Positions 7,880 to 48,731 of a stretch of DNA of 64,000 bases are shown here, piece after piece. The notes under the pieces are model-generated. The model saw only the letters and a list, made by a program, of their open reading frames with translations. It was not told the origin of the DNA and did not search any database. A program made the translations under genes and the position numbers. Origin of the DNA: Eggerthella sp. YY7918 (GTDB lineage: Bacteria; Actinomycetota; Coriobacteriia; Coriobacteriales; Eggerthellaceae); assembly GCF_000270285.1 (NCBI RefSeq), contig NC_015738.1, positions 1,364,001-1,428,000 of the forward strand. Reading direction: 5' to 3'. Each line of letters opens with the position of its first letter. The first letter of the stretch is position 1.

Positions 7880-8917
7880 TTATGAAACCGGGGTTGCGAT
7901 GGTGGCGTACAGCTCAAGCCATTGGCCATCTTTGACGGTCACGGTTTGTGTTCCCCCAGCAATAACATATTTTTCTTCGATGATGGAGTCCTCGTCGAAG
8001 CGGATGTCTTTCATTACGTAGGCTGCACAGGTTTGGTCGGTGTTCACCGCGGCCTCTTTATCTACGGTGATGTTGTAGGTGCCAGCGGGCAGGTCGGTTC
8101 CTACGCGGTACAAGCCCGATCGGTAGGGATCAGCAGAGGGATGAAAGTCGGCACGATTGGCCAAATACATACGTGCGGTGTCGCCGCCCAAGAAGACGAT
8201 TGCATCGCCCTCTTCCAATTCGGTGAAGTAATTACCGAAGTAGGAAATGGTTTTTTCGATTTCGTAGACACCGTTTTCGTAGTCGTCAAACACGTGGAAT
8301 TTTCCTTCTTCGGTTTGACTGCCTTCGATGAAGTAAAGTCCTGGCTCAAGGTCTTTGCCAACACCCACCTCGTAAACGCCAGACGACGCACGTCCGTCCT
8401 CAATCGTATTGGGCAGATCAGTGCCTATGGCAGCTTTGATGTCATCGATTGTGAAGCCGCCCGAGATGCTGCTATCCGACGAACCTGAATCGTAGTCGTA
8501 GTTGTAATCATATCCGTAGCGATCGCTGTGGCGCGGATCGAAAGATCCGTTGTAGTCGGAGTCAAAATACAGGGCGCACGATACGCACCCCACGCAGCCG
8601 CCAATTCCTAGAAGAAAGACAAGCAAACATGCAATGAGCACCCATGGCCATACCTTTTTCTTTGGTGCGGGCTGTGCAGGCATGGGATACGGGGGCTGCA
8701 CTGGATAGGGCGGATACGGAGGCTGTTGACCCGCGTACCCGTAGGGTTGCTGGGGTTGCTGAGGCTGGCCGTAGGGCTGTTGTGGTTGTCCATAAGATTG
8801 AGGTTGGCCATAGGGCTGCGCACCGTACCCGTTCGGCTGCTGTGGCGAAGCCGAAGGTGGCGGAGGCGGGGGAGTCGAGCCATCGGGCATGATAGGAGGG
8901 CGTTCAGGTTCACTCAT
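7880..8917 (-). CDS. Pro/Gln/Tyr-rich single-pass membrane protein with duplicated C-terminal motif
   Basis: Residues 1-88 are almost entirely Pro, Gln, Tyr and Gly, with YGQPQ-type repeats, and end in a basic PAPKKK. One hydrophobic segment (VWPWVLIACLLVFLLGIGG, about 89-107) with several cysteines follows, then an acidic Tyr/Asp/Ser linker and a soluble domain. That domain contains a repeated motif: VGVGKDLEPGLYFIEG and VGTDLPAGTYNITVD, each probably one small beta unit. The layout matches Gram-positive proteins with a low-complexity cytoplasmic tail, one membrane span and an outer domain. The start has AAGGAG seven bases upstream. I do not recognise a characterised family; function is unknown. 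Confidence 0.8.
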   Translation of the reverse strand: MSEPERPPIMPDGSTPPPPPPSASPQQPNGYGAQPYGQPQSYGQPQQPYGQPQQPQQPYGYAGQQPPYPPYPVQPPYPMPAQPAPKKKVWPWVLIACLLVFLLGIGGCVGCVSCALYFDSDYNGSFDPRHSDRYGYDYNYDYDSGSSDSSISGGFTIDDIKAAIGTDLPNTIEDGRASSGVYEVGVGKDLEPGLYFIEGSQTEEGKFHVFDDYENGVYEIEKTISYFGNYFTELEEGDAIVFLGGDTARMYLANRADFHPSADPYRSGLYRVGTDLPAGTYNITVDKEAAVNTDQTCAAYVMKDIRFDEDSIIEEKYVIAGGTQTVTVKDGQWLELYATIATPVS

Positions 8918-43552: not shown

Positions 43553-43727
43553 GTTTCCTGAGCGCAGACAGTATTTCAGCTTGCGTCGTTCGGGACCCTT
43601 CTGCTCTGCGCCTTCCCTCTGCGTCTTCGGCGTCCCGCCTTCGACTCCGCGTCTTTTGCCCTACGCTTTCGGTGCTCCGCCCAAGATGAGAAAGCTGTTG
43701 GGTCGATGCCGCTTTCAACGCGTCAAA

Positions 43728-43743
43728 TGTTTCACGTGAAACA
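43728..43743. promoter_or_regulatory. parS-like palindrome upstream of murB
   Basis: TGTTTCACGTGAAACA is a perfect 16-bp palindrome. It equals the ParB-binding parS consensus (TGTTNCACGTGAAACA), and its core GTTTCACGTGAAAC is the actinobacterial form. Its centre lies 36 bases upstream of the centre of the murB -10, just beyond a normal -35. It may bind ParB, a transcription factor, or both. Confidence 0.8.
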
Positions 43744-43765
43744 TTTATTTATGTGCTGGTCGGTT

Positions 43766-43774
43766 TGCTATACT
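43766..43774 (+). promoter_or_regulatory. murB extended -10 promoter
   Basis: TGC-TATACT is an extended -10 with no recognisable -35, and the palindrome sits where upstream control would be expected. Transcription should start about 23 bases before the murB ATG. Confidence 0.65.
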
Positions 43775-43803
43775 GCCGCTGTCACCCTTTGGAAGGATTG
43801 CAT

Positions 43804-44730
43804 ATGACGGCAGATGACCGAGAAACATTGCGTGAAGCGTTTGCGGACATGATCGATGAAGGCGCGGTTCGGTTTGGCGTGCCGTTGGCTCCGCTTACGA
43901 CGTTTCGCATTGGCGGTCCGGTCGATTGCCTCATTGAACCGCGTACGGTTGATGAAGTGAGGCGCGCGCTTGCAGCGTGTCGGGACTGCGGTGTACCGGT
44001 GCGTGTGATGGGGCTTGGAAGCGACATTCTGGTTGCAGATGCCGGCTTGCGGTGCACGATCGTGCGTATCGCTGAAAATTTGTCCCATATTGAGATTCAT
44101 GGCAATGTGATGCAGGTGGAAGCTGGTGCATCAAATGCCGAGGTGGCACGACGAGCCTGCGAAGCCGGTTTGGCGGGGTATGAGTTTGCCTGCGGCATTC
44201 CGGGAACCGTGGGTGGTGCGGCCATCATGAATGCAGGCGCCTACGGTGGCGAATTCAAAGACGTGGCGGTTTCTGTGTGCTGTATTACGCCTGCTGGGGA
44301 AGTGGTTGAAGTGAGCGCCGAGGAGGCCGCTTGGTCGTATCGCCACAGCATGATGGACGCGGCTGGCTATGTGGTAGTAGGTGCAACCCTGCATCTGACC
44401 CCTGATGATTCCCAGGTCATTCAGGCTCGCATGGATGACCTGACGCGGCGGCGCACCGAAAAGCAGCCGCTCGATATGCCCAGCGCTGGCAGTACGTTCA
44501 AGCGTCCTGAAGGCTACTTCGTGGGAAAGCTTGTCGAGGAGGCTGGTCTGCGCGGCTATCGCGTGGGTGGTGCGCAGGTGTCGGAAAAGCACACGGGGTT
44601 TGTGGTGAACGCAGGGGAGGCGACAGCTCGCGAGGTGCGTCAGCTTATTGCGGACGTTCAAGAGCGCGTTTTTGCACATGCCGGCGTACGCCTCGAGCCT
44701 GAAGTCCGCATGTGGGGCTTCGACGACTAG
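43804..44730 (+). CDS. murB: UDP-N-acetylenolpyruvoylglucosamine reductase
   Basis: MurB reduces the enolpyruvyl group to make UDP-MurNAc in peptidoglycan synthesis, using FAD and NADPH. The 308-residue product starts at ATG 43804 behind GGAAGGA. LTTFRIGGPVDCLIEPRTVD near 29 and VMGLGSDILVADAGLRC near 70 bind FAD. GCACGIPGTVGGA-like FACGIPGTVGGAAIMNAGAY near 120, SYRHSMM near 180 and SAGSTFKRPEGYFVGKLVEE near 230 carry the active site. It looks complete and is of the shorter type IIa-like form. Its promoter region is duplicated ahead of the Fic gene. Confidence 0.95.
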   Translation: MTADDRETLREAFADMIDEGAVRFGVPLAPLTTFRIGGPVDCLIEPRTVDEVRRALAACRDCGVPVRVMGLGSDILVADAGLRCTIVRIAENLSHIEIHGNVMQVEAGASNAEVARRACEAGLAGYEFACGIPGTVGGAAIMNAGAYGGEFKDVAVSVCCITPAGEVVEVSAEEAAWSYRHSMMDAAGYVVVGATLHLTPDDSQVIQARMDDLTRRRTEKQPLDMPSAGSTFKRPEGYFVGKLVEEAGLRGYRVGGAQVSEKHTGFVVNAGEATAREVRQLIADVQERVFAHAGVRLEPEVRMWGFDD

Positions 44731-44763
44731 GCTTGAGGTCACTGTCTGCTTGCTCTACGGACG

Positions 44764-45267
44764 TTAGGAGCGATTCTCGGCATCTCGAAGAGACTCTTCT
44801 ACAAGACGGCGCAGGTTTGCGGTGAAGCGTTCGCGGTCGTCTTCTTCAAAGGGGGCGGGGCCGCGCGTTCGGCCACCTTGGCGACGCACCTTCTTTTCTT
44901 CATGACGAATGTGCATATCGAGGTCGATGGTGGCTAGCGTGTAGATGCGTCCGCGTACCCCGATGGCTCGCGCACCGCGCCCGAGCGCCATGGCGGCCAA
45001 GCCGATATCTTGCGTCACCACGATGTCGTCCTGCGAAAGTTCCTGCACGATAGCGAAGTCGGCTGCGTCCGCTCCCACGCCTACGGCCAGTGTATCCACC
45101 CAGAATCCGTCAGTGGGCAGGCGCGGGTCGCCGCGTCGGACGTGCCGCGTAAGATTTTGCGTCGAATTGCCAGCAATGACCACGGGGACCTTATAAGCCC
45201 GCGCCACGGCAAGCGCCTCGGAAGTCACCGGACAAGCATCGGCATCTATAAACACCGTAGGTTTCAT
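44764..45267 (-). CDS. YaiI/YqxD family protein (UPF0178)
   Basis: The 167-residue protein begins MKPTVFIDADACPV, the family opening, from ATG 45267; a GTG eight codons upstream (45291) is also open, and neither has a strong Shine-Dalgarno. Typical blocks are VVIAGNSTQN near 27, VGADAADFAIVQELSQDDIV near 60 and VTQDIGLAAMALGRGARAIG near 80, plus a basic linker (KKVRRQGGRTRGPAPF). This fold is related to PIN/NYN-like nucleases, but no activity has been established. It lies between murB and the Fic gene, on the other strand. Confidence 0.9.
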   Translation of the reverse strand: MKPTVFIDADACPVTSEALAVARAYKVPVVIAGNSTQNLTRHVRRGDPRLPTDGFWVDTLAVGVGADAADFAIVQELSQDDIVVTQDIGLAAMALGRGARAIGVRGRIYTLATIDLDMHIRHEEKKVRRQGGRTRGPAPFEEDDRERFTANLRRLVEESLRDAENRS

Positions 45268-45393
45268 GGAGGGATTTCGCTTTCTCTTCACGGTTGTTTC
45301 TAGTATAAGGCTCGTTCGCTCTGAGATGCTTCAGTACTTGGCCGACGCGCCCCTGCGGACAGCGCGCGGGGCACGCGTGCAGGAGGTGCCCAA

Positions 45394-45409
45394 TGTTTCA
45401 CGTGAAACA
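45394..45409. promoter_or_regulatory. parS-like palindrome upstream of the Fic gene
   Basis: The same 16-bp palindrome TGTTTCACGTGAAACA as at 43728-43743, identical at every position. It lies 1,666 bp from the first and at nearly the same distance from a -10 (TATACT). Confidence 0.8.
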
Positions 45410-45431
45410 TTTGTTTGTGTGACGGCAGGTT

Positions 45432-45440
45432 TGTTATACT
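45432..45440 (+). promoter_or_regulatory. Fic gene extended -10 promoter
   Basis: TGT-TATACT, preceded by GGTT, matches the murB promoter block nearly base for base and has the same spacing to the palindrome. Confidence 0.65.
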
Positions 45441-45470
45441 AATGCCGATAGTGTTTCGGAAGGATCGTTC

Positions 45471-46373
45471 ATGACGGCAGATTGCCCGCAAGACTTCCCC
45501 TATGAACCTGTGCGCGAAACAGGTGACGTTTTCGTGCGCCGCGGATACTGGAATGTTGCGATAGGCTTGCAGAAGGTGGATGGGCTCGAGCCGTCAAATT
45601 ATCTGAGAAAACTTGCGGATGAGCATGTCGAAGGGGAGCGCGACATCGCGGAAACGGGCGAGCTTCTGCGCATGTACTACGAGCAACGTACATCTTTTGA
45701 TCGTAATAATGCTTGCGAGGTTGACTCGCGTGAAGCGGACCTCGTAAGCCATCGTATTGTTGAAATACTTTCACGAGGGGCGTTCGCTCTTGTACCATCG
45801 ATGCTTCCCGACGTACACCGATTATTGTTCCAAGACCTTGATTCTGAAACATATCGTCCTGGTGTGTTTAAGGCTGATGCTCTTCAAAAGCGCGAGCTTA
45901 TACTCAACGGAGACAGTGTGGTATACACTGATCCGTCCCTTGTTGAGCGTTCGCTTGAATTTGCCTTTAATGACGAGACATCCTACGTCTACGACATCGC
46001 GTTTAGTACCGAGCAGCTTGCACATTTCGTACGTTTCGTCTCTCGGCTGTGGCAGATTCATCCCTTTGTAGAGGGAAATACCCGCACTGTGGCCGTGTTC
46101 GCGGTACTCTACTTGCGTTTTCTCGGGTTTGATATCGACAACGAACCCTTCGAACAGCATTCGCGGTACTTTCGCGACGCTCTCGTGCGCGCAAACTACC
46201 GTAATGCGAAGGCTGGCGTAATGCCTGAGCCGTGCTTTCTTATGCGTTTCTTCGAAAACTTGCTTTCTGGAGCACATCACGAATTGCACTCTCGCGATCT
46301 TATGGTGCAGGCTCTTTATGACGATCCGGGACTTCTCCGCAATGTTGACCCCTCGCATGCTATAAAGCAGTAG
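45471..46373 (+). CDS. Fic/DOC domain protein
   Basis: Fic proteins transfer AMP or other nucleotide-derived groups to target hydroxyls. The 300-residue protein has the catalytic loop HPFVEGNTRT near residue 200 (consensus HxFxxGNxR), with the base His and the Arg present. Upstream are the helices QLAHFVRFVSRLWQIHPF and the flap region near 150-180. I see no clear (S/T)xxxE(G/N) inhibitory motif in the protein and no antitoxin gene beside it. The first codons, MTAD, and the upstream 75 bases copy murB. Target and role are unknown. GGAAGGA precedes the ATG. Confidence 0.85.
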   Translation: MTADCPQDFPYEPVRETGDVFVRRGYWNVAIGLQKVDGLEPSNYLRKLADEHVEGERDIAETGELLRMYYEQRTSFDRNNACEVDSREADLVSHRIVEILSRGAFALVPSMLPDVHRLLFQDLDSETYRPGVFKADALQKRELILNGDSVVYTDPSLVERSLEFAFNDETSYVYDIAFSTEQLAHFVRFVSRLWQIHPFVEGNTRTVAVFAVLYLRFLGFDIDNEPFEQHSRYFRDALVRANYRNAKAGVMPEPCFLMRFFENLLSGAHHELHSRDLMVQALYDDPGLLRNVDPSHAIKQ

Positions 46374-46502
46374 AAATTCGCATAATCGCTCGTATGCTGT
46401 GGCCTGTGGATGGCTTGTCGGCCTGCGATGCGCGTATGGTTAGCACCCGGTTTTGCTGACCCCGTGAAGGGTGGCGTGCGCAGGGGGAACGCTTGTGCTG
46501 TT

Positions 46503-46511
46503 TGCTATACT
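46503..46511 (+). promoter_or_regulatory. uvrC extended -10 promoter (leaderless start)
   Basis: TGC-TATACT ends six bases before the ATG at 46518, which is the expected distance from a -10 to +1. Transcription would therefore begin at the A of the start codon. The block GTTTGCTATACTG is shared with the murB promoter. Confidence 0.6.
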
Positions 46512-46517
46512 GGGCCT

Positions 46518-48731
46518 ATGGACGATGTACATAACAACGCCTTTGAAGGCGACTCGATAGAGAACGAACCCCATCCCTCGAGCGACCGCTTGCGACGCGA
46601 GGTTCATCACTTCGCGCTTGAACGAGCGACCCGCGAGTTTAATGAAAATGCCGATGCGGGTGGAGTAGAGCGTCTTGAAACGCCCGAAGCGATGGGCGAT
46701 TCTGCTGTCGACGAGCCGCTTCAGGCAAAGCTCGACCGCATCAAGCAGGAACTCAACGCCGTACCCACATTGCCGGGCGTCTACCTGTGGAAGGACAAGT
46801 CCGGTCAGGTCATCTACGTGGGCAAGGCGAAGCAACTGCGTGCCCGTATGCGTCAGTACGTGAACTTTCAGGACGAGCGTGCGAAGATCCCGCTGCTGGT
46901 GGACCAGATTGACAGCTTCGATTACATTGTGGTGGAAAACGAGCACGAGTCGCTCGTGCTGGAGAAAAACCTCATCAACCAGCATGCCCCGTTCTTCAAC
47001 GCCGACTTCAAGGACGACAAGTCCTACCCCTTCATCGCGCTCACGAAAGGCGACGTCTTCCCCGCCATCAAATACACGCGCGAGAAGCACCGCGCTGACA
47101 CGAAGTACTTCGGCCCCTACACCGACAGCCGCGCTGCGCGTGACATGGTGGACATCGCGCGGCGCGTGGTGCCGCTGTGCGCCACGTCGTGCGCCGACTG
47201 GCGTCAGCTCAAACGCCGCCTCGATAAAGACCCGCTCGCGCTGCTCAACCGCGATGCGCGTCCGTGCTTCGACGCACATGTGGGCCTGGGTCCTGGCGCG
47301 TGCTGTGGCGGCATCACGCCGGAGGAATACCAGGTGAACGTTAAGCGCATCGAGCGTTTCCTGTCCGGTCAGCACCGCGAGTTCGTTGAAGAGCTTACCG
47401 CCGAAATGCAGGCCGCGGCCGAAGAACTCGACTTCGAGCGCGCCGCACGCATCAAAGCGCGCATCGATACCATCAACAGCCTCACCGACAGGCAGCACGC
47501 CGTATCCACACGCAACCTCGATGCCGACGTGGTGGGACTCTTCCGCGAGGAAACGGTGGCGGGCGTGCATGTGTTCATGGTGCGCGAAGGTCGCATCATC
47601 AACTCGAACGAGTTTGTGCTCGACCGCGGCAAGGACGTGCCCGACGACGACCTGCTGCACATGTTCCTGTTGCGCTACTACGACGCCACCACCTCTATCC
47701 CGCACGAGGTCATCCTGCGCGACGAGCCGGAGGACAAGGAGGCCATGGAAGCCTGGCTCACCGAGATGCTGGCCAGCCCCCACGGCGCGAAAGTCCGCTT
47801 CACCGCGCCGCAGAAAGGCGAGAAGGCCGAGCTCGTGGGCATGGCCGAAACCAACGCGAAGCACACGCTCATGCGTTACAAAGTGCGCACGAACTACGAC
47901 GACAAGCGCATCAACAACGCGTTGCTCCAGCTGGAAAGCGCGCTCGCCCTCGACGCGCCACCTATGCGCATCGAGTGCTTCGACATCTCCACCATCCACG
48001 GCTCCTACACGGTGGCCTCGATGGTGGTGTTCACGAACGGCAAGCCCGACAAGAATCAGTACCGTCGCTTCAAGATTAAAACGCCGCTCGACGAGGCAAA
48101 CGACTTCCTGTCCATGCAAGAAGTCATGAGCCGCCGCTACGCACCCGAGCGCATGGCCGACGAGCGCTTCGGCAGCAAGCCCGACCTCATCATTCTCGAC
48201 GGCGGCAAGCCGCAGCTCTCCGCTGCGCTCAAAATGTTTGACGAGATGGGCATCGACGACATTGCGCTCGCTGGTCTGGCTAAGCGCGACGAGGAACTGT
48301 TCGTGCCCTGGCAGGACACGGGCCCCGTGGTGCTGCCCAGTGGTTCGGCCTCACTCTACCTGGTGAAGCAGGTGCGCGACGAGGCCCACCGCTTCGCTAT
48401 CACCTTCCACCGCGAGCTGCGCGGCAAGGGTATGACGGCCTCTATCTTGGACGACGTGGTAGGCATGGGCCCTGTGCGCAAGAAGGCCCTGCTCGCGCAC
48501 TTCAAGTCGTTCAAGAACCTCAAGGCCGCCACGCTCGAGGAGATCAAAGCGGCCCGTGTCGTGCCCGAAGAGGTGGCCGAGGAGCTGTTCCGCGTGCTGG
48601 AGCAGTATAATAAAGAACGAAAGAACGAACGCGTCGTCGGCGGTGAAGACGACACGGAAGATGTGTCCGCTGCGGCGAAGGATACCAAGATCGACCGAGC
48701 CGACGAAAGGGAAGGGATATCCCATGAGTGA
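46518..48731 (+). CDS. uvrC: UvrABC system protein C
   Basis: UvrC makes both incisions in nucleotide excision repair. From ATG 46518 it has 737 residues, longer than the usual 590-660; roughly the first 75 are an N-terminal extension (rich in Asp, Glu, Arg). Domains in order: GIY-YIG nuclease (TLPGVYLWKDKSGQVIYVGK near 82), a UVR domain (EEYQVNVKRIERFLSGQ, then EELDFERAARIKARI near 305), an RNase H-like nuclease (MRIECFDISTIHGSYTVASM near 480) and the helix-hairpin-helix region (GMGPVRKKALLAHFKSFKNL near 650). An acidic tail ends the protein. It overlaps rapZ by 8 bp. Confidence 0.95.
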   Translation: MDDVHNNAFEGDSIENEPHPSSDRLRREVHHFALERATREFNENADAGGVERLETPEAMGDSAVDEPLQAKLDRIKQELNAVPTLPGVYLWKDKSGQVIYVGKAKQLRARMRQYVNFQDERAKIPLLVDQIDSFDYIVVENEHESLVLEKNLINQHAPFFNADFKDDKSYPFIALTKGDVFPAIKYTREKHRADTKYFGPYTDSRAARDMVDIARRVVPLCATSCADWRQLKRRLDKDPLALLNRDARPCFDAHVGLGPGACCGGITPEEYQVNVKRIERFLSGQHREFVEELTAEMQAAAEELDFERAARIKARIDTINSLTDRQHAVSTRNLDADVVGLFREETVAGVHVFMVREGRIINSNEFVLDRGKDVPDDDLLHMFLLRYYDATTSIPHEVILRDEPEDKEAMEAWLTEMLASPHGAKVRFTAPQKGEKAELVGMAETNAKHTLMRYKVRTNYDDKRINNALLQLESALALDAPPMRIECFDISTIHGSYTVASMVVFTNGKPDKNQYRRFKIKTPLDEANDFLSMQEVMSRRYAPERMADERFGSKPDLIILDGGKPQLSAALKMFDEMGIDDIALAGLAKRDEELFVPWQDTGPVVLPSGSASLYLVKQVRDEAHRFAITFHRELRGKGMTASILDDVVGMGPVRKKALLAHFKSFKNLKAATLEEIKAARVVPEEVAEELFRVLEQYNKERKNERVVGGEDDTEDVSAAAKDTKIDRADEREGISHE

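Follow-up and report, generated by a model that had tools for sequence, protein, structure and literature searches.

A parS-bearing promoter block shared by murB and a neighbouring Fic gene in Eggerthella sp. YY7918

In the genome of the gut bacterium Eggerthella sp. YY7918 (one contig of 3,123,671 bases), murB and a gene for a Fic-domain protein are adjacent and on the same strand, and a similar run of bases leads from a palindrome into the first codons of each. The locus raises the questions of whether this likeness arose by copying or by chance, which gene held the block first, and what protein would read the palindrome. These questions were addressed in a window of 64,000 nucleotides (positions 1,364,001-1,428,000 of the contig), which is the whole stretch of DNA analysed and to which the feature coordinates below refer, together with the complete contig and related genomes.

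The block in front of murB and Fic

The murB gene (43804-44730, plus strand), which begins MTAD, carries the FAD-binding and MurB C-terminal domains (Pfam FAD_binding_4, PF01565, and MurB_C, PF02873), and its N-terminus was compared with those of other murB loci as described below. The Fic gene (45471-46373, plus strand) encodes a protein with the motif HPFVEGNTRT that scores 33.7 bits against a cut-off of 24 for the Fic/DOC family (PF02661; Pfam Fic, 7e-8), and HPFxEGNTRT is present in all eight members of the family alignment. A YaiI/YqxD family gene (44764-45291, minus strand; Pfam DUF188) sits between the two. The elements common to murB and Fic are the palindrome TGTTTCACGTGAAACA, identified below as the ParB site parS, TTTRTTTRTGTG, an extended -10 (TTTGYTATACT), GGAAGGAT and ATGACGGCAGAT. 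The murB copy of this module (43726-43815, plus strand), recognised from the sequence, a genome search and a flank comparison, is made up of parS, TTTATTTATGTG, the extended -10, a leader and ATGACGGCAGAT; the Fic copy (45392-45482, plus strand) is its probable donor, judging from the sequence, the genome search and relatives. The palindrome is exact at both places (43728-43743 and 45394-45409), where chance would supply a mean of 0.16 occurrences in the window at up to three mismatches, with one of 100 shuffles reaching two. TATACT lies 25 nt after the right end of the palindrome in both window copies, and the predicted extended -10 elements lie on the plus strand at 43764-43774 for murB (TTTGCTATACT; TATACT 43769-43774) and at 45430-45440 for Fic (TTTGTTATACT; TATACT 45435-45440). 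Both have the make-up of an extended -10 sigma-70-type promoter, namely TGN and a TATAAT-like hexamer suitably spaced from the ATG (TGCTATACT and TGTTATACT). The probable ribosome-binding sites, GGAAGGAT in both cases, are found at 43791-43798 and 45458-45465 (plus strand). From the palindrome to 8 nt past TATACT the two copies are identical at 43 of 55 positions, and the nine coding bases after the ATG are the same in both genes.

The initial annotation had described a shared palindrome-to-start block whose similarity stops a few codons into each gene, and this description held: the similarity does not continue past codon 4 or to the left of the palindrome, and the adjoining 60 nt on either side score 6 and 11 locally, where unrelated flank pairs have a mean local score of about 7.5 to 8.6. 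The distances of 77 and 78 bases given there from palindrome to ATG agree when counted inclusively, and are otherwise 76 nt (murB) and 77 nt (Fic) from the first palindrome base to the A of the ATG. The stretch said to vary over 20-30 bases is shorter; counted by eye, 16 and 17 nt separate TATACT from GGAAGGAT, with 5 further nt between GGAAGGAT and the ATG.

When a 98-base Fic block was searched against the YY7918 genome, 114 matches were obtained (83 first-look candidates, 40 scored). The block found itself and murB (query bases 8-98, 77% identity, E 1.9e-12), and none of the 112 other matches extended past query base 49, so none spans TATACT. The flanks of the parS sites were then compared with parS and four flanking bases removed; 174 of 214 flanks were kept, those that were incomplete or held a second CACGTG being excluded, and pairs less than 260 bases apart were skipped. 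The murB-Fic pair scored highest of 14,926 flank pairs (31.0; mean 8.6, sd 1.9), and the runner-up, at 27.0, is a different repeat. When the parS-to-ATG part was compared without codons, among 143 upstreams lacking CACGTG, murB-Fic again came first of 10,153 pairs, at 20.5 with the next at 20.0; without the codons it is barely the best upstream pair, which counts against uniqueness. Among flanks that face promoters, TGNTANNNT occurs within 60 nt in 6 of 69, versus 0 of 90 that face gene ends, and TATAMT in 4 of 69 versus 2 of 90. An identical parS-to-TGNTANNNT offset is found in the murB/Fic pair only among the 69. parS as a general part of promoter architecture is unsupported with the -10 patterns tested, the single shared offset being that of murB and Fic.

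parS sites in YY7918 and its family

The sequence TGTTTCACGTGAAACA matches the published parS consensus exactly (as given in PMC10197239), and the genome holds 103 exact copies, or 112 at up to two mismatches; the site analysis covers 107 of these 112 (the 103 exact copies and four with one mismatch). The initial annotation had treated the palindrome as an element of murB and Fic, whereas the copy upstream of murB is one of these 103. Seventeen of the 107 sites lie above 3.1 Mb, around a ParB ORF and a ParA-like ORF at 3.116-3.118 Mb, and form a cluster at 3.113-3.120 Mb; an ORF that looks DnaA-like by eye begins at base 1, and the sites show the clustering beside parAB near oriC that is seen with parS. 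According to the relevant passages of PMC7022226, the vast majority of parS sites in bacteria fall within the 20% of the chromosome that makes up the ori domain, whereas 52 of the 107 sites here are within 300 kb of base 1 and 55 are farther away. Symmetric replication would put the window near the terminus. A home-made gene caller, which missed genes near the origin and so gives rough counts of gene context, placed 14 of the 107 sites inside called genes, all 14 in the VSRET frame, and 9 between convergent genes.

A further TTY flank is common to the origin-cluster and the distant parS sites, as expected if one protein reads both. Five proteins match ParB_N above the cut-off, the strongest of them encoded at 3.116 Mb beside the ParA-like ORF (by eye). 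Aligned to 6t1f, this ParB has R and G at Caulobacter positions 173 and 201, residues with parS-type specificity roles (as described in PMC7383237), and the helix regions of the other four differ (by eye). From the sequence, the palindrome is identified as the ParB site parS. At least two of the other four ParB_N proteins (L077 and L079) also adjoin ParA-like ORFs (by eye). The reading of the sites as copies of one long mobile repeat is rejected, as the pooled flanks lose most information after about four bases; a repeat of about 170 bp accompanies two of the parS sites.

YY7918 is one of several genomes with such numbers. At least 20 exact parS copies were present in 28 of 138 family genomes, its own included, which span 11 genera, and at least 100 copies in 10 of the 138; 109 of the 138 had fewer than 15 (median 3), with none in 13. 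The highest count outside the family was 13, in a draw of 296 phylum genomes that took in some of the family, and a bacterium is stated to have one to 20 parS sites, a range that PMC10197239 quotes from a 2007 survey. An altered ParB reader in the many-parS genomes is unsupported, the helix region of ParB being nearly the same in high- and low-parS genomes (21 of 22 loci found). No report of many parS sites in Eggerthellaceae was among the titles and abstracts listed in a search that most subscription papers fell outside. The existence of many-parS genomes is a more surprising fact than the copying of the module.

Direction of copying

To read the direction, the N-termini and upstream regions of both genes were compared across relatives. 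All eight aligned members of the Fic family have the N-terminus M[TS]A[DE]. For murB, the best 30 loci of 58 matching genomes (60 searched) were read at their aligned starts; the M[TS]A[DE] start was present in one of the 30, the window's own, and in none of the 29 others, and the murB of G031, which is 80% identical, begins directly at DRETLR. No parS (up to three mismatches) was found in the 400 nt before murB at these 29 other loci, two of which (L087 and L106) offered 356 and 375 nt; a parS lies inside the murB region itself in L106. The Fic gene has the module in Candidatus Gordonibacter avicola (L110; parS with one mismatch), Rubneribacter avistercoris (L111; no mismatch) and R. badeniensis (L112; three mismatches), all with the conserved order Fic-uvrC-yvcK-whiA-gapA, and no MurB or YaiI match was found in the 8 kb upstream of these three Fic genes (E 1e-8). 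The initial annotation had proposed a search of relatives for Fic genes with the same upstream module. Of the 20 Fic loci inspected (of 60 found), these three carry it; in the 17 others the 140 nt upstream hold no parS, and the locus holds none at up to two mismatches save one elsewhere in L122. The module at murB was seen in YY7918 only, and at Fic it also occurs, intact or degraded, in Gordonibacter and Rubneribacter.

Because two further genera have the module at their Fic orthologues, the Fic family natively begins M[TS]A[DE], and neither feature is found at the 29 other murB loci, the promoter, leader and four codons of Fic were most likely copied to murB. The murB copy is slightly nearer to the uvrC copy of G001, the other Eggerthella species in the comparison set (46 of 55 identical, with 22 gap columns), than to its own Fic copy (43 of 55), so the case for the Fic-to-murB step is carried mainly by the four codons and by the absence of the module at other murB loci.

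In YY7918, uvrC (ATG at 46518) has the same -10, TTTGCTATACT, at 46501-46511 (plus strand) without the parS part, and the full module stands at this place in some relatives. A pattern of a parS half, 15-45 nt and TTTGYTATACT was searched across the 138 family genomes and hit 23 places in 19 genomes, while a reversed control pattern hit 0 in the 138. Sixteen of the 23 places precede a gene start resembling D-Ala-D-Ala ligase (by eye) and two precede a ParA-like gene (by eye); the other five are the module studied here, at the murB and Fic of YY7918, at the Fic and uvrC of R. avistercoris, and at the uvrC of G001, which is without Fic. At uvrC the module is present in G001 and G024 and degraded in G004 (one mismatch) and R. 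badeniensis (three). Among the best 30 uvrC loci of 130 matching genomes, TTTGCTATACT is found in the 800 nt upstream of the uvrC match in 18 (the 17 nearest, own included, plus L246) and an exact parS in 7.

The Fic and uvrC modules of R. avistercoris are direct repeats that bracket Fic, identical at 66 of 75 positions and with both parS intact; those of R. badeniensis are identical at 74 of 76, with both parS broken alike, and both leaders run GGCGGCAT after TATACT, which in uvrC takes in the first start-codon bases. Between the two Rubneribacter species the orthologous copies are less alike (uvrC-uvrC 58 of 75, Fic-Fic 62 of 75) than are the two copies within either species, a pattern that gene conversion or repeated duplication would produce. 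The order of acquisition that these comparisons suggest is uvrC, then Fic, then murB, of which only the last step is well supported; with the parS part missing from uvrC of YY7918 and most of the 30 inspected uvrC loci, uvrC as first donor is a guess from parsimony.

Separate origins for the two blocks would require that spread parS sites landed near both genes, that the -10 and GGAAGGAT are ordinary consensus sequences, and that ATGACGGCAGAT is a chance match. In its favour, the genome has 103 parS copies, TTTGYTATACT also occurs at uvrC and at an origin-proximal gene, 37 nt from parS, without the remainder of the module, and the parS-to-ATG part alone is barely an outlier. We nevertheless regard convergence as unlikely, given that the full murB-Fic flank tops all 14,926 pairs, that TGNTANNNT is so scarce near promoter-facing parS sites and at a common offset in murB and Fic only, that the nine bases after the ATG are absent from the 29 other murB loci taken, and that the two genes are neighbours on one strand; the flank comparison and the relatives support the earlier proposal of one copied module.

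It had also been suggested that Fic acquired a murB-type promoter. Both copies are intact and their identities alone give no direction, but this reverse transfer is hardly credible when none of the 29 other murB loci taken has MTAD or an upstream parS, the Fic genes of three relatives in two other genera have the module, and the N-terminus in question is found throughout the Fic family. That the palindrome is not parS and serves as the operator of a dedicated transcription factor co-regulating murB and Fic is distinctly improbable: it does stand at the same place before both promoters, and KorB-type ParB relatives regulate transcription on plasmids (as noted in PMC7022226), but it is the exact literature parS consensus (PMC10197239), its sites cluster around the parB locus, some of them lie within genes or between convergent genes (by the rough counts above), and the four remaining ParB_N proteins differ in their helix regions (by eye).

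Regulation and known systems

Copying from Fic to murB may be set in a longer history. The shared block would be a promoter cassette composed of parS, a 25 nt spacer, an extended -10, a leader with ribosome-binding site and four Fic codons. It would have begun as the uvrC promoter, been duplicated when Fic arrived in front of uvrC, and been duplicated again when murB, with yaiI, arrived in front of Fic; murB would have lost its own start region and would now be driven by the Fic promoter, with Fic codons 1 to 4 fused on. The palindromes would be read by the chromosomal ParB, which, with the right ends of parS 25 nt upstream of the -10, would sit beside the -35 region, and ParB-CTP clamps at both parS sites could lower or modulate transcription of murB and Fic alike. 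Taken as a whole, from uvrC through Fic to murB and with ParB as reader of the sites, we consider this explanation probable.

Co-regulation of murB and Fic through ParB is possible, and the effect expected would be modest, equal for the two genes and ParB-dependent. As no general link between parS and promoters was found with the patterns tested, co-regulation is best viewed as a side effect of where parS sites lie in a genome that has about 100 of them. The precedents described in PMC7022226 differ among species: in P. aeruginosa, repression is known from parS sites in front of two genes and of a test-plasmid promoter; B. subtilis genes adjacent to parS were unchanged when ParB was lost; and in S. 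pneumoniae no changed gene adjoined parS, while mutation of one parS raised comCDE 5 kb away. More tentatively, in several genera of Eggerthellaceae ParB might act as a chromosome-wide architectural and regulatory protein that loads at about 100 parS stations, promoters among them. The front of uvrC would be a hot spot where incoming genes, Fic and later murB-yaiI, become bracketed by parS-promoter repeats, each placed under the same ParB-sensitive promoter and open to later loss through recombination between the repeats.

Among known systems, ParB-type regulators such as KorB, and P. aeruginosa ParB at parS3 and parS4, resemble this case in having a ParB-family site just upstream of a promoter. 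They differ in that repression has been shown for them (PMC7022226), whereas the YY7918 case is known from its sequence and shows no general parS-promoter link with the -10 patterns tested.

Promoter capture by local duplication, in which a gene gains the promoter, leader and first codons of its neighbour, is a familiar type of event, and murB appears to have gained exactly these from Fic; alone this would be a modest case study. It departs from simple capture in that the module is found at three neighbours (uvrC, Fic and murB) across species, and in that Fic is bracketed, in two species, by direct repeats that seem to have changed in concert. The bracketed Fic gene is also a concrete case for following the spread of a promoter cassette.

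The interest lies in the context, since the copied promoter carries parS in a genome with 103 parS copies, against at most 13 outside the family among the 296 phylum genomes. Sites that load ParB at a distance from the origin would be expected to interfere with segregation by SMC, and genomes with about 100 parS sites therefore make it testable whether ParB is a genome-wide chromatin protein and whether promoter-adjacent parS sites set expression. In its exact 16-bp consensus, its cluster beside parB and a ParB with parS-type specificity residues, the YY7918 system is like chromosomal ParABS. Elsewhere that system has one to 20 sites (PMC10197239), mostly in the ori domain (PMC7022226), whereas in YY7918 its 103 parS copies are spread over the whole chromosome and occur opposite the origin, at promoters and within coding sequence as well.

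Module repeats around Fic, and other copies of Fic and murB

In two Rubneribacter genomes, the parS-promoter module (at Fic of Eggerthella sp. YY7918: the parS palindrome, the extended -10 element TTTGYTATACT, the leader and the first four Fic codons) flanks Fic on both sides as a direct repeat; the repeats lie at 7904 and 9276 in the Fic-uvrC locus of R. avistercoris (L111), and at 7903 and 9028 in that of R. badeniensis (L112). A broken parS is common to both repeats in one of these two pairs.

A 60-residue match to the Fic N-terminus (63% identical; L034, G004:C1:318623) is located about 3.9 kb before uvrC (L227, at 322538) in G004, another genome of the family, and may be what is left of this Fic gene. 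Eggerthella sp. YY7918 (G000) carries a second Fic gene at 605833-606669, which is 43% identical, and no parS was found in the 3.8-kb locus of this gene. The same genome harbors two murB genes of unlike types (37% identical), at 1407804 and 1066558; the other Eggerthella species compared displayed a murB match only with the second type (that of 1066558).

parS-promoter pairs at a ddl-like gene and the start of uvrC

A search of 138 family genomes for a parS half followed after 15-45 nt by TTTGYTATACT returned 23 places, and in 16 of these (L200-L203, L208-L212, L214-L219 and L222) parS and TTTGYTATACT precede a gene that resembles ddl by eye; in G000 and G004, this arrangement adjoins parB. 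At uvrC, the start codon follows the TATACT box by 6 nt (window 46501-46520), and similarly short spacing was seen at uvrC of the relatives listed. Judged from the 6-nt spacing, the uvrC mRNA may be leaderless.

parS sites within genes and round the chromosome

Exact parS sites (n = 103) are distributed round the whole G000 chromosome, many parS sites are also present in other genera of Eggerthellaceae, and spacings of 33-54 nt make up 11 of the 106 gaps separating adjacent sites in the G000 site list. All 14 G000 sites called inside genes lie in the frame that encodes VSRET, these gene calls being rough; examples of coding regions with such a site, likewise roughly called, are L038 1036-3099 and L039 1313-4087. 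In Enterorhabdus sp. P55 (G005), an exact parS at about 1407 of L106 separates two MurB-matching parts of one locus, and looks as if inserted in the linker between them.

A repeat of about 170 bp with inverted ends stands next to two parS sites in G000 (1248847 and 2836152), and in the second copy the ends read GCTGTGGCAATTT ... ATTGCCACAGC; this repeat looks like a small non-coding mobile element.
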